Below are positions 35,531 to 47,317 of a stretch of 64,000 nucleotides of DNA, in pieces (the stretch's first letter is position 1; every line of letters begins with the position of its first letter). The notes beneath the pieces are model-generated. The model did no database searches, was not told the origin of the DNA, and saw only the letters and a program-made list of their open reading frames with translations. This DNA comes from Ignavibacteria bacterium (GTDB lineage Bacteria > Bacteroidota > Ignavibacteria > Kapaibacteriales > UBA2268): assembly GCA_016844745.1 (NCBI GenBank), contig JAERMQ010000010.1, positions 1-64,000 on the forward strand, read 5' to 3'. The translations under genes and the position numbers were made by a program.

Positions 35531-37133
35531 ATGGATGAAATCTCAAATATAGAATTTGAGCAACTCCCCACATTAATCAAAAACCTTGAGAGAGGTTATT
35601 CTAATTTAATAAAAATTATCTCCCGGTTCCCTGTTGGTATTGTTATTTTTGATTTACACTTCCGGATAAAATTTATCAATCAAAATTTGATGGAGGTTTT
35701 GAATCTGATGAATAATAATACTACTACTTTAAGGATGGAAAATATTTTTGGAAGTGATTATAGTTTCGAGAAGATAAATGATTTGTTTAATGGAAAACTT
35801 GATGAATTATCATTTAATACAAGATTAGATTGTAATGACGATGATAAATTAGCTCATGTTACAATATCCGAAATCGGTCAGACAGAAGCTGGGTTGAAAC
35901 TTGCATTAGCAATATTCCAATTTAATGGCGAACAGGATAAAAGACTCAATGAAATTAAATTAGCCCTGACCGAGCAGCATCAAATAACTAATGTCGGTAC
36001 ATTTAAAATTAATATTGCAAATCATTCAATGTATTGGTCTGAAGAGACATTCCGCATTTTCTCGATTTTACCAATCGAAAAAGAAACTTCAATCGAAACA
36101 TTCTACCATTTTGTACACCCCGAAGATTTGGAACATTTTATTAGCTGTTTGGAACGAACTATTGATAATGTTTGCCAGTTGAATATTGAATTTAGAATCA
36201 TTGACGGGCTGGGAAATTTGAAACATCTTCATTGCATTGGCGATCCTGTTTCAGACTCAAACGGCAATATTGAAGGCATTTTTGGAATAATGCTGGATTA
36301 TACGGAGAAAAAACAGTTGGAGGGAGAAAAAGATTCTTTGATTACCCAGCTACTATCTACAAAAGTATCTTCCGAACAACAATATGCCGAATTGCAAAGT
36401 CTATATGAGAAACTATCTGAAACGAAAAATATACTCCAGGAAACAATAGCATCGAAGGACAAATTCTTCAATATTTTAGCTCATGATTTAAGGGGGACCA
36501 TTCTCCGGATTTCTGGGACTTACTGAAATATTATTAAGTGATTATGAAAAAATTCCAAGAGTGGAATTATATCAAATAGCATTAGAAATGAATCGTGCCG
36601 CAGGTAAAGAGTTCAACCTGCTTGAAAACCTTCTTATTTGGGCTCGCTGCCAAACGGGTAGAATTGATTATTTACCGGTTGAATTGGACTTAAATAAAAT
36701 TATTAGGGAAGTAGTTCTCTTATTTGCACTGAATGCCGCTAATAAAGGAATCGAAATTGTTATGAACATTCCTGTTAATACACAGGTATTTGCTGATTTT
36801 AATATGCTCAATACAATCTTGCGTAATTTAATCGGGAACTCGGTGAAATATACTAATAAAGGTGGAAAGATAATCATAGAATCGGAATTGTTAAAAGATT
36901 TTTTACAAGTTGAAATAACGGATAATGGTATTGGTATGAGTGATGAAATCAAGGCGAGTCTTTTTAAAATCGATTCACAGGGGACAACCGAAGGCACAGC
37001 CGGAGAAAGGGGTTCGGGTATGGGGCTTTTGCTCGTTAAGGAATTTGTAAATATAAATGGGGGAACTGTTAATGTTGAAAGCGCTCCTGATAAAGGCAGT
37101 TCATTTGTTTTCACTTTAAAAAGAAGCCAATAA
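35531..37133 (+). pseudogene. PAS sensor histidine kinase, frameshifted at a G run
   Basis: The first part (35531-36528) has PAS-like segments (about 30-110 and 150-265), a coiled coil, and the phospho-acceptor motif FFNILAHDLRG (His 318). The frame then breaks at GGGGG, 36492-36496: with four G the sequence would read DLRGPFSGFLGLTEILLSDYEKIP and run on into the second part (to 37133), which holds the N box, G1 (DNGIGM), G2 (GSGMGLLLVKEF) and the rest of the ATPase domain. So a single extra G splits one gene of about 534 codons. A sequence error, a recent mutation or slippage at the G run are all possible. Confidence 0.8.
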
Positions 37134-37837: not shown

Positions 37838-39319
37838 ATGAAAGCTATTTTAGACTGCAAAGACGGTAATTCTGAAAAAAATCAAATGAGTGAAATATTT
37901 TTTTTACAGAGTATTTTCGATAGTTCGAATGAACTTTCTTTTGTAATCGATAATTGTAATTCTATTGTAAAGACAAATAAAAAGTTCGAGGATTTTATCG
38001 GTGCTGTTCATATTGACTCGATTGGTAAAAACGCAGACAACGTATTAAAAAATACCGAATTGAATTTTGCCCGAATGGACGGATACTCATTAATAGAGAA
38101 AGTACGAAGAACAAACGTTCCTATTTCATTGGTTAGCATAGCCCGCACCCAGGATGAAAATCATTGGGAAGTTGATTTCTCACCAATAAAGGATATGGCA
38201 GGAAATACTGCTTTTATACTGCTTTCATTCAGGAAAATTAATGAACGTATAAGATTGATTCGCGAGATTGAAAGCTCCGAACATAAGTTCCAGAGCTTTA
38301 TTAATTCGGCTCAGGATTGGATTTCAATAAAGGATATTTCAGGTCGATATGTCGCAGTCAATAATGTTACCGCTAAAGCATTCGGCTTGCAACCGGAGGA
38401 TTTTATCGGCAGGCAACCAAAAGATGTTCTACCGGAAAAATTATCCGAAATTATTAAAGTCCACGACCAGATTGTTTATGATACTAAAAAATCTCATACT
38501 TACGAAGAAGTAATTCCAATTGACGGGCAAGACCATATTTTTCAAACCGTCAGGTTTCCAATGACGGATTACAGTGGCGAAATCAATGGTATCGGCACAA
38601 TTGACCGTGAAATTACGCGGGAAGTTCAACTTCAGGAGCAACTAATCAAAAGTGAAAAACTTGCTGCTCTCGGTAAGCTTGCTGCCGGAGTTGCACATGA
38701 AATCAATAATCCGCTAACAGGTGTACTTACATATGCCGAAGATTTATTGGAAAGCTTTGATGAAACTGATACCCGCAGGGAAGACCTTGATGTTATAATC
38801 CGGGAAACTTTGCGCTGCCGGGAGATTGTACGGAACTTATTGGATTTTACCCGCCAGGATAAACCAAGATTTGAAAAGAGTCATCCAAATTCAATTGTTG
38901 AGCGGGCGCTGCTGCTCATCAAAAGGCTGCCTCAATTCCGCAATATTGAAATTACAAAAGTAATGGCTCCCGACCTGCCGGAAATTCAATCCGACCCGCA
39001 GCAGATTCAGCAGGTGCTTTTGAATCTTTTCCTTAATGCAGCAGATGCTATGCATTATAAAGGTTCGATTACGATTAGTACGGAGCTTGATAGAGGTAAA
39101 AATAATTGTATGTTATCCGTAGCCGATTCCGGACCTGGAATTCCCGGGGATATCATAGATAAAATATTCGAGCCCTTTTTCTCGACAAAATCGACAAACG
39201 GATTAGGGCTTGCCGTTTCATGGAGCATTATTGAACTGCACAGGGGTACTATCGAAGTGGAGAATATGCTTCGGGGCGGCGCCTTGTTTAGGGTGAATCT
39301 ACCTTGCAATATTGAATGA
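37838..39319 (+). CDS. PAS-containing sensor histidine kinase
   Basis: The protein has 493 residues without membrane helices. A PAS-like domain lies at about 20-125 and a clear PAS at about 145-265 (LINSAQ... WISIKDISGRYVAVN). HisKA follows with GVAHEINNPLTG (His 287), then HATPase with N box NLFLNAADAM, G1 DSGPGIP and G2 NGLGLAVSWSI. The type resembles NtrB-like soluble kinases. It precedes the receiver-GcvH-like regulator by 23 bases, so the two form a two-component pair. Confidence 0.88.
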   Translation: MKAILDCKDGNSEKNQMSEIFFLQSIFDSSNELSFVIDNCNSIVKTNKKFEDFIGAVHIDSIGKNADNVLKNTELNFARMDGYSLIEKVRRTNVPISLVSIARTQDENHWEVDFSPIKDMAGNTAFILLSFRKINERIRLIREIESSEHKFQSFINSAQDWISIKDISGRYVAVNNVTAKAFGLQPEDFIGRQPKDVLPEKLSEIIKVHDQIVYDTKKSHTYEEVIPIDGQDHIFQTVRFPMTDYSGEINGIGTIDREITREVQLQEQLIKSEKLAALGKLAAGVAHEINNPLTGVLTYAEDLLESFDETDTRREDLDVIIRETLRCREIVRNLLDFTRQDKPRFEKSHPNSIVERALLLIKRLPQFRNIEITKVMAPDLPEIQSDPQQIQQVLLNLFLNAADAMHYKGSITISTELDRGKNNCMLSVADSGPGIPGDIIDKIFEPFFSTKSTNGLGLAVSWSIIELHRGTIEVENMLRGGALFRVNLPCNIE

Positions 39320-39342: not shown

Positions 39343-40134
39343 ATGTCAGAGAAAGTAAGAATACTGGCTGTCGATGATGAACAAATAATTCTTGACAGCA
39401 TAAAAAAATCCCTGAAAGATGTAAGCGATATCGAGCTTTGCTTTGCAGATTCCGTATCCGACGCGCTTTCGAAAATCGAAGGAGCTAATTTCGATATTAT
39501 TTTAACCGACCTGATGATGCCGGGAATTGACGGCTTGGAATTTCTAAGGATATTGAAGAGTAAAGCTGAGGATATACTCGTTATTATGATTACCGGTTAT
39601 GCGACGATTTCAACTGCTCTTCAGGCTTTGCAATTAGGCGCTTTCGATTATTTGGCAAAGCCGTTTACTAAAGATGAAATCAAGAAAGTGATTAAAAGGG
39701 CGAGCGAACTTTCGATATTAAGAAGAAAAAGTTTTCCAAAAGGTATTTCAAAAAATGTGAATAATAACGGTCAAACTACATATCAGACTTTAAAAGGTAT
39801 CGGTCAGGATACCTGGATTAATTGTCAGGAGGATGGAACATTGTTATTAGGTATCGAACGCCTTGCCCTAACAAATATTGGAAATATTCAAACATTTTAT
39901 TTACCTTCGGAAGGCGACATTTTGCGGCAGGGATGTCTTTACTTACAAATTTTTACTTCCGATTTCAGTTCTTATTCTTTTTTATCCCCATTGTCCGGTA
40001 CTATATTAAAAGTTAACCATGAAATTCTTTCCAATCCCGATATTTTAAATTGTGAAGGAAAAGAGAACAACTGGATATTAAAGCTTCAACCTTCGAATTA
40101 CGAATCAGAAATTAAATTAATTGTCAATTGTTAA
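39343..40134 (+). CDS. response regulator: receiver domain fused to a degenerate glycine-cleavage-H-like domain
   Basis: The protein has 263 residues. The receiver at about 5-120 has DD (11-12), phospho-acceptor D56 in LTDLMMPG, T84 and K106 in LAKPF. A basic linker follows. Residues about 156-254 follow the GcvH pattern in order: DTWINCQEDGTLLLGIERLAL, then IQTFYLPSEGD, then SPLSGTILKVNHEILSNPDIL and NNWILKLQPSN. The lipoyl lysine of GcvH (in ESVKA) falls at F208 in FTSDFSSYSF, so it cannot carry lipoate. The domain is probably a sensor or docking unit. There is no DNA-binding domain. It is 23 bases beyond its kinase. Confidence 0.85.
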   Translation: MSEKVRILAVDDEQIILDSIKKSLKDVSDIELCFADSVSDALSKIEGANFDIILTDLMMPGIDGLEFLRILKSKAEDILVIMITGYATISTALQALQLGAFDYLAKPFTKDEIKKVIKRASELSILRRKSFPKGISKNVNNNGQTTYQTLKGIGQDTWINCQEDGTLLLGIERLALTNIGNIQTFYLPSEGDILRQGCLYLQIFTSDFSSYSFLSPLSGTILKVNHEILSNPDILNCEGKENNWILKLQPSNYESEIKLIVNC

Positions 40135-40296
40135 TTGTTAATGGTCAATGGTTAATGGTCAATTGTCAATGGTCAATAGTTAATGGAATTGTCTGAATTA
40201 GGATTTGTAGGATTAAAGGATGTAAGGATTATTTTCCATTTACCATTGTTTACTACTTTTTACTATTTTTTAATATGGATTTTTCGTATTTTTTTT

Positions 40297-40770: not shown

Positions 40771-40839
40771 GTCTGAACCATTGATTAAGCTGATTAATGG
40801 ATTAATATGATTTTTATTACCTAATTTCTAATTCATAAT

Positions 40840-40960
40840 TCAGCATTCAACATTCAGCATTCAGCATTCAGCATTCATAATTCATAATTCAGCATTCATA
40901 ATTCAGCATTCATAATTCAGCATTCATAATTCAGCATTCATAATTCAGCATTCATAATTA
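40840..40960. repeat. AATTCAGCATTCAT low-complexity tandem repeat
   Basis: Units of TAATTCAGCATTCA (14 bases) and shorter CATTCAG words fill about 120 bases. No coding content. Confidence 0.75.
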
Positions 40961-46012: not shown

Positions 46013-46171
46013 GATTAATTTCCGAATCCGCTATTGATTTTCTAACAAAACAGTTCTTCCATATCAAAAACAATAAATTATTTTTCACCATACCAAATTT
46101 TCCATTTTCCATGTAAAAATTTTTATTTAATTTTGAAAAATGAATTTTATAACCAAAGTGTTTTTGTTTTG

Positions 46172-47317
46172 ATGGATAATATAACATTTTCAAACTGCAT
46201 ATTTTGCAAAAGCACGAAAGTAATCAAGCATGGAAAGACTTCCACCGGTAATCCACGCTTCAGATGCCGGGTGTGCAATAAAACCTGGGTTGTCGAAAAG
46301 AACGAACCTGAGCGACCTGATTTGGCAGATGTAACGGTAGCCTACCTTGGGGGCAGGACCTGCCGTGATTTGGTTTCGGTCTATCACAGTTCTCCCCTTC
46401 GTATCAATCAAAAAATCCGTGAATTTTTAAATCAATGCCCACACTGGGAAGAATATATAGATTCAATTGTACAAAATCATGAAGTAAGGATTATATATCT
46501 TATCGGACGCAGTTTTTCATGCGCAACTAAAGGCTCACATTCGAATTCAAAATTTCTTGCTTTGGCTGTAGATGCGCTTTCAACAGTCATATTAGGGTAT
46601 GAAATCGATGATACGGAAACCCAGCAAACCTGGCAGAAATTACTTGAAAGGATGAAGAAACGGAATATAAATTGTCCTTCCTTTATGTCCAATGGTTCAA
46701 GGTTAATTGAAGATTCAGTGCATGCAACCTATCCGAATGCGACAGTCCGGATAAATTACCATCGTGCATATCGCGATAAGGAACTGATGTGCTGCATTTA
46801 CCGTCTGCCGATAAATAATAAACTCCTAAATGATGCCGTAAAAATTTACAATTCATTAGATAACAGGAACCTGAATAAATACCTTAAAAATACAATCGAT
46901 AAAAAGCTGCAGGATATTCTTTTTTCTTCGCAGGAAGAATTCATCAGGAGGGTAAAAGAACGGTTGGAAAATAAAACCAAAATTCGAATCGAAGGTTTAA
47001 CGACAAGCTTCCAAGCCAGGTTTGAAAAATTTCACATGCTGAAGGATGACCCATATCCTTTAATCAACGGCTGGGTTGCCGATAATATGCTAAAACCATT
47101 ACACTTTGGTTTTTCACGTCTTTCGCTCTATAGTCAATCCCCGATAGTAACCTCTTTCAAAAAGTTCTCTATGCGGGAAATGCCTGAACCTGTTGATTTA
47201 ACAGATGACACCCAGCTTCTGAAAACATTTGTAATCGAAGTTGCAGCGCGTGGTTTGCAGTTACCTGTTATCTTCAATAGCTGTGAAATGAAGTCTGACA
47301 AATGCAGTTTATTCTAA
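46172..47317 (+). CDS. transposase-derived protein (InsA-like zinc finger plus DDE-like region)
   Basis: This encodes 381 residues from the first ATG (46172); a TTG at 46133 is the alternative. The N-terminus (CIFCKSTKVIKHGKTSTGNPRFRCRVC as a CxxC/CxxC pair) resembles the IS1 InsA zinc finger. A helix-turn-helix-like part follows, then ALAVDALSTVILGYEID, whose Asp fits the first acid of a DDE site. The second position reads SNGSRL where TDG would be expected, so Asp is replaced by Asn. No terminal repeats or target duplication are seen around it. It could be a domesticated or dead transposase. It lies 24 bases ahead of the SDR gene on the same strand. Confidence 0.6.
   Translation: MDNITFSNCIFCKSTKVIKHGKTSTGNPRFRCRVCNKTWVVEKNEPERPDLADVTVAYLGGRTCRDLVSVYHSSPLRINQKIREFLNQCPHWEEYIDSIVQNHEVRIIYLIGRSFSCATKGSHSNSKFLALAVDALSTVILGYEIDDTETQQTWQKLLERMKKRNINCPSFMSNGSRLIEDSVHATYPNATVRINYHRAYRDKELMCCIYRLPINNKLLNDAVKIYNSLDNRNLNKYLKNTIDKKLQDILFSSQEEFIRRVKERLENKTKIRIEGLTTSFQARFEKFHMLKDDPYPLINGWVADNMLKPLHFGFSRLSLYSQSPIVTSFKKFSMREMPEPVDLTDDTQLLKTFVIEVAARGLQLPVIFNSCEMKSDKCSLF

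Follow-up and report, generated by a model that had tools for sequence, protein, structure and literature searches.

The window, the whole stretch of 64,000 nucleotides that was analyzed, contains at 39343..40134 on the + strand an intact open reading frame for a response regulator of 263 amino acids with a GcvH-like output domain. Pfam identified the receiver domain (residues 7–117; 39361..39693, +) as Response_reg (1.9e-28); its residues D11, D12, D56, T84, and K106 are present and are invariant across 20 relatives. A histidine kinase gene lies directly upstream of the regulator (37838..39319, +), and a gene for a protein with a Zn ribbon and likeness to Mutator-type transposases lies 6 kb away (46133..47317, +). 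A plasmid origin was considered and rejected, there being no match among plasmids. Tandem arrays of 7/14-base units were found at 40117–40186 and 40829–40959; the first starts within the final codons of the regulator, whose C terminus it may have reshaped.

The output domain of the regulator

The GcvH-like domain (residues 155–259; 39805..40119, +) was recognized by Pfam, by AlphaFold with Foldseek, and by profile alignment. Its Pfam match to GCV_H covered nearly the whole model (8.2e-14; 52 bits against a cut-off of 22.2), and the C-terminal domain searched alone against the PDB matched H proteins (5.5e-8). Comparison of the GcvH-like family with true GcvH proteins by hhalign gave 99.7% and an E-value of 6e-27. 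Structure prediction with 12 relatives as input produced a model with a pLDDT of 82 and a pTM of 0.75, the one confident model of five, the other four being poor. The best Foldseek match of this model was the E. coli H protein 3a8j (E 3.2e-9, TM 0.82), and every one of the 22 matches at E < 0.001 was an H or H-like protein. From the model, the output domain is predicted to have the hammerhead, or barrel-sandwich, fold of H proteins. A preliminary description of this DNA had proposed a GcvH-like C-terminal domain; the Pfam, PDB, Foldseek, and hhalign matches bear this out, the predicted structure has the hammerhead fold rather than lacking it, and chance similarity to GcvH is ruled out by the Pfam, PDB, profile, and fold matches together.

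The same description held that the lipoyl lysine had been lost, and residues 152–222 indeed contain no lysine. Its assignment of the lysine position to F208 did not hold: F208 is what an ungapped reading gives, whereas in the hhalign profile-profile alignment the lipoyl lysine of GcvH pairs with D207 (codon 39961..39963, +), with a one-residue insertion after D207. In the core clade of the regulator tree (38 members, support 100/99), D207 is invariant and F208 is variable. On these alignments the equivalent position is more likely D207 than F208.

Among 44 receiver–GcvH fusions in which the region was readable, the lipoyl column held Asp in 42, Glu in one, Gln in one, and Lys in none; the preliminary description had asked whether a residue other than lysine is conserved there among homologs. 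Besides D207, the positions W158, G170, G180, L187, P188, D192, R195, G197, P216, G219, N225, and W244 are invariant in the core clade, and the strongly conserved features of the domain are the hairpin Asp, a W, and the motifs RQG, PLSG, and VN. The invariance of these positions in 38 proteins indicates that the domain has been kept under constraint after loss of the cofactor site and is not decaying. It thus resembles GcvH (PF01597) in fold and in its full-length profile match, but differs in the missing lipoyl lysine, the invariant Asp of the core clade, a hairpin longer by one residue, and fusion to a receiver. Unlike GcvH, it was not seen adjacent to gcvT or gcvP in the loci read, as judged by domain scans and sequence.

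Genes of the cassette

Examination of the genes neighboring homologs, as the preliminary description had advised, revealed a conserved cassette: a protein kinase-like gene (PK), a histidine kinase gene, and the regulator gene. This order was found in four Kapabacteria loci, in one of which PK is cut by a contig end, and in about 16 Zixibacteria loci. Neighboring genes were called with a simple ORF-finding script, and for many the identification was visual rather than profile-based.

The histidine kinase gene is directly upstream of the regulator in nearly all loci. In the window it encodes a kinase of the cognate type with PAS domains, HisKA (His287 in HEINNP), and HATPase_c, and without recognized membrane domains, in agreement with the earlier pairing of the regulator with a soluble PAS kinase. 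Most relatives of this kinase are about 605 amino acids long; their first ~110 amino acids are missing from the window's 493-amino-acid kinase and from L042. This N-terminal region contains a glycine-rich loop, GGGKGC, and an invariant Asp that ends strand 2. Its profile matched acylating acetaldehyde dehydrogenase in the PDB (2.5e-4), with weak Pfam matches, and its AlphaFold model (pLDDT 88) gave as best Foldseek match the NAD-binding domain of 1nvm (E 2.7e-4, TM 0.62). We read it as a putative NAD(H)-binding-like Rossmann domain. A second Rossmann-domain gene was looked for in the window's own genome and was not found. Further upstream in the window, at 35531–37133, another histidine kinase gene is split into ORFs 35531–36526 and 36561–37133, through disruption of the gene or an error of assembly.

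PK, upstream of the histidine kinase, encodes a divergent, atypical Ser/Thr kinase-like protein of about 325 amino acids. The protein at L041 matched Pkinase at 2.2e-7, just below the Pfam cut-off, and kinase matches in the PDB were distant. The motifs HGDIRNDH and WIDFDL are invariant in nine sequences, and the catalytic HRD-like Asp and the DFG-like Asp are present. In the Kapabacteria group, PK was found in 11 of the 12 regulator-carrying genomes vs 0 of 48 others (Fisher p 3.5e-11, species tree ignored), also where the genes are unlinked; the sole carrier in which it was not detected, G007, is 89% complete. PK of the window's genome is on contig C65, unlinked from the regulator.

The conserved receiver residues and the adjacent histidine kinase with its H-box and ATPase domain are those of two-component systems, and the window's adjacent kinase and receiver scored best against AtoS and AtoC-like models. 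Unlike the regulators of AtoS/AtoC- and ZraS/ZraR-type pairs, however, this one has a GcvH-like output in place of the sigma-54 AAA+ and DNA-binding domains; further differences are the Rossmann domain of the kinase relatives and the protein kinase as third gene.

Distribution of the regulator and its association with dsrA

Regulator orthologs were present in 11 of 59 related genomes, all of them from the family to which the window's genome belongs; the named relatives that carry it are Candidatus Kapabacteria. A contig scan added carriers from Zixibacteria, one Sumerlaeota, and one labeled Deltaproteobacteria, as well as two fused proteins on one contig labeled Bacteroidetes. In the Kapabacteria relative G025, the genes downstream of the regulator are, in order, the Zn-ribbon gene, sat, aprB, aprA, further genes, dsrA, and dsrB. 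Because the regulator adjoins sat-apr-dsr genes there, dsrA was searched for across genomes, most of which are metagenome-assembled.

In the Kapabacteria group dsrA was found in 9 of 60 genomes. The regulator was present in all nine of these vs three of the 51 without dsrA (Fisher 1.5e-8, species tree ignored); these three are G006, G012 (76% complete), and G028. Of 132 genomes from the Zixibacteria phylum, 27 carried a core regulator and every one of these had dsrA; none of the 79 genomes lacking dsrA had the regulator (Fisher 1e-13; 9e-19 when pooled with the Kapabacteria group; the species tree was ignored and genera are not independent). The 27 carriers include G158, with the gene split over two contig ends, and G188, with the gene cut at a contig end; dsrA is in pieces in G063, G118, and G146 and frame-split in G157, and two dsrA matches weaker than 1e-5 were set aside. 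The Sumerlaeota carrier, whose regulator is divergent, has dsrA; none was found in the two named carriers that diverge most. Since 26 of the 53 dsrA-bearing Zixibacteria genomes have no regulator, it is not required for the pathway.

The window's own genome has a complete sat-apr-qmo-dsr locus on contig C68, with qmoAB-like genes, sat, aprBA, dsrAB, a dsrL-like gene, and a DsrC-family gene. Family UBA2268 of the Kapabacteria and the Zixibacteria have been treated as likely sulfate reducers (PMC10591310; PMC6338057); neither response regulators nor histidine kinases nor glycine cleavage are mentioned in these two papers on dsrAB-carrying genomes.

In a distant clade, the fusion proteins of G172, G175, and L067 are near NrfD and 4Fe-4S proteins, and the G172 locus also has a sigma-54 regulator and a second receiver protein alongside. 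Because the genomes of the distant fusion proteins (L055, L067, G172, and G175) have no dsrA, the receiver–GcvH fusion has a wider range than sulfate reduction, the link to which lies in the core clade. Divergent fusions at L258:3647-4519, L259:7299-8126, L067:3-785, and L067:828-2033 are beside 4Fe-4S and NrfD membrane proteins, in genomes without dsrA.

Possible roles of the regulator

We consider it somewhat probable that the regulator is the output of a signaling module associated with dissimilatory sulfate/sulfite reduction in Kapabacteria, Zixibacteria, and one Sumerlaeota genome. From distribution and genomic context we infer a ligand, a phosphotransfer, a docking partner, and an effect on sulfate reduction, as follows. 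With its Rossmann and PAS domains the histidine kinase would sense the redox or NAD(H) state, and it would phosphorylate D56 of the regulator. The GcvH-like domain, unable to carry lipoate, would act as a docking surface on which the former lipoyl hairpin displays the invariant Asp, D207. In H protein, the lipoyl hairpin is the part recognized by the H-protein enzymes; a hairpin that is in place, but with an invariant Asp instead of the lysine, would fit a docking role freed from lipoate. The docking domain would work by protein contact and not by DNA binding, most likely with the companion kinase PK or a sulfate-respiration enzyme, both plausible candidates. The regulator has no DNA-binding domain, as first described, and therefore protein contact is its natural output, as is expected of single-domain and other non-DNA-binding response regulators. 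The earlier suggestion of a protein-interaction output thus remains the best guess, but its alternative, metabolite sensing by the output domain, was unsupported: a nucleotide-binding-like domain is present in the relatives, but as part of their partner histidine kinase, and the window's kinase lacks it. The more specific proposal, that PK, the histidine kinase with its NAD-binding domain, and the lipoate-less H-protein regulator sense pyridine-nucleotide redox and directly control sulfate-reduction enzymes via the docking domain, is possible but rather doubtful.

The domain might instead be a decoy H protein under receiver control, which binds lipoate ligase, lipoyl synthase, or the P or T proteins and so acts on lipoate or glycine-cleavage metabolism. 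The shared fold and full-length profile match would suit this, and the window's genome also encodes a true, lysine-bearing GcvH (L001). The regulator was not seen beside gcv or lip genes in the loci read (mostly judged from sequence), however, its distribution follows dsrA, and the hairpin read by lipoylating enzymes has been rebuilt around the invariant Asp; we regard a decoy as quite improbable. It is also improbable that the regulator and dsrA are associated through shared ancestry only, the cassette and the dsr genes having been co-inherited without a functional link. The association counts ignore phylogeny, and the 26 dsrA-bearing Zixibacteria without the cassette are in keeping with mere co-inheritance; against this, each of two phyla shows the association by itself, as does a Sumerlaeota genome whose regulator is divergent, and the cassette is mostly off the dsr contig, so that linkage alone is insufficient, yet it adjoins sat-apr-dsr in G025.

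A further candidate for the target is the Zn-ribbon protein, to which the Kapabacteria regulator would signal and which, as a DNA-binding protein, would control the sat-apr-dsr genes. In six Kapabacteria relatives its gene comes after that of the regulator and, in the Kapabacteria group, is present in all 12 regulator carriers vs 2 of 48 other genomes at >50% identity. A paralog in the window's own genome (L181:5768-6928) lies between a qmoB-like gene and sat, and one copy in G025 is directly upstream of sat. The protein has an InsA-type Zn ribbon, and its second catalytic Asp is apparently lost, replaced by Asn or Lys, so that it looks domesticated. DNA binding by this protein is presumed, however, and at E 1e-10 no copy of the gene was found among the 132 Zixibacteria-phylum genomes, a group in which the regulator is common; therefore it cannot be a general partner. 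A role as target in Kapabacteria seems unlikely. In G006, a regulator carrier without detected dsrA, the Zn-ribbon gene (L264:5835-6979) is broken by a frameshift or stop.

The preferred reading, a module tied to sulfate reduction, need not apply unchanged to the window copy, which belongs to a partly dismantled module and may have an altered function. The window regulator has the longest branch of the core clade (1.89; end branches across the tree have a median of 0.55). Neither the DPYG motif nor the hairpin Arg remains in it, no Rossmann domain is present in its histidine kinase, and PK is on another contig, all as might be expected of a copy that is turning into a pseudogene and no longer functions like its relatives. 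There is only a small chance of this, however: the regulator and kinase ORFs are both open; the catalytic residues of the receiver, the H-box, D207, and all of the fully invariant positions of the GcvH-like domain are kept; PK is intact elsewhere in the genome; and dsr genes are present. The window copy is probably a derived, still working member.

The literature searched held no description of a receiver–GcvH fusion or of a GcvH-like output type. To our knowledge there are no cultivated sulfate reducers in the two phyla, or perhaps in the third, and little is known of how sulfate reducers tune the pathway. If the proposed role is true, the cassette would be a signaling module distinguishing the sulfate respirers of two phyla, perhaps a third, and the regulator would represent a new type of response-regulator output, derived from a metabolic carrier protein through loss of its cofactor; the proteins of the module are specific candidates with which control of sulfate reduction could be tested. 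A parallel exists in LbpA of sHdr sulfur oxidation, which is also GcvH-like and linked with a dissimilatory pathway of sulfur metabolism; the 95 LbpA proteins near hdr-like genes keep the lipoyl lysine (PMC6067878), whereas the regulator has lost it, is associated with the Dsr pathway, and is fused to a receiver. The regulator would then be another case of the H-protein fold tied to dissimilatory sulfur metabolism.

Other GcvH-like proteins with altered lipoyl sites were also observed. The window's own genome encodes one on contig C56 (L046:9175-9693), with a lipoprotein-like N terminus and Gln at the lipoyl position (SNSQQSKDVYTPVSG). Proteins with an N-terminal hydrophobic segment and a lipoyl site without lysine occur in several phyla (L056, L058, L063, L072, L080, L083, L109, and L111).
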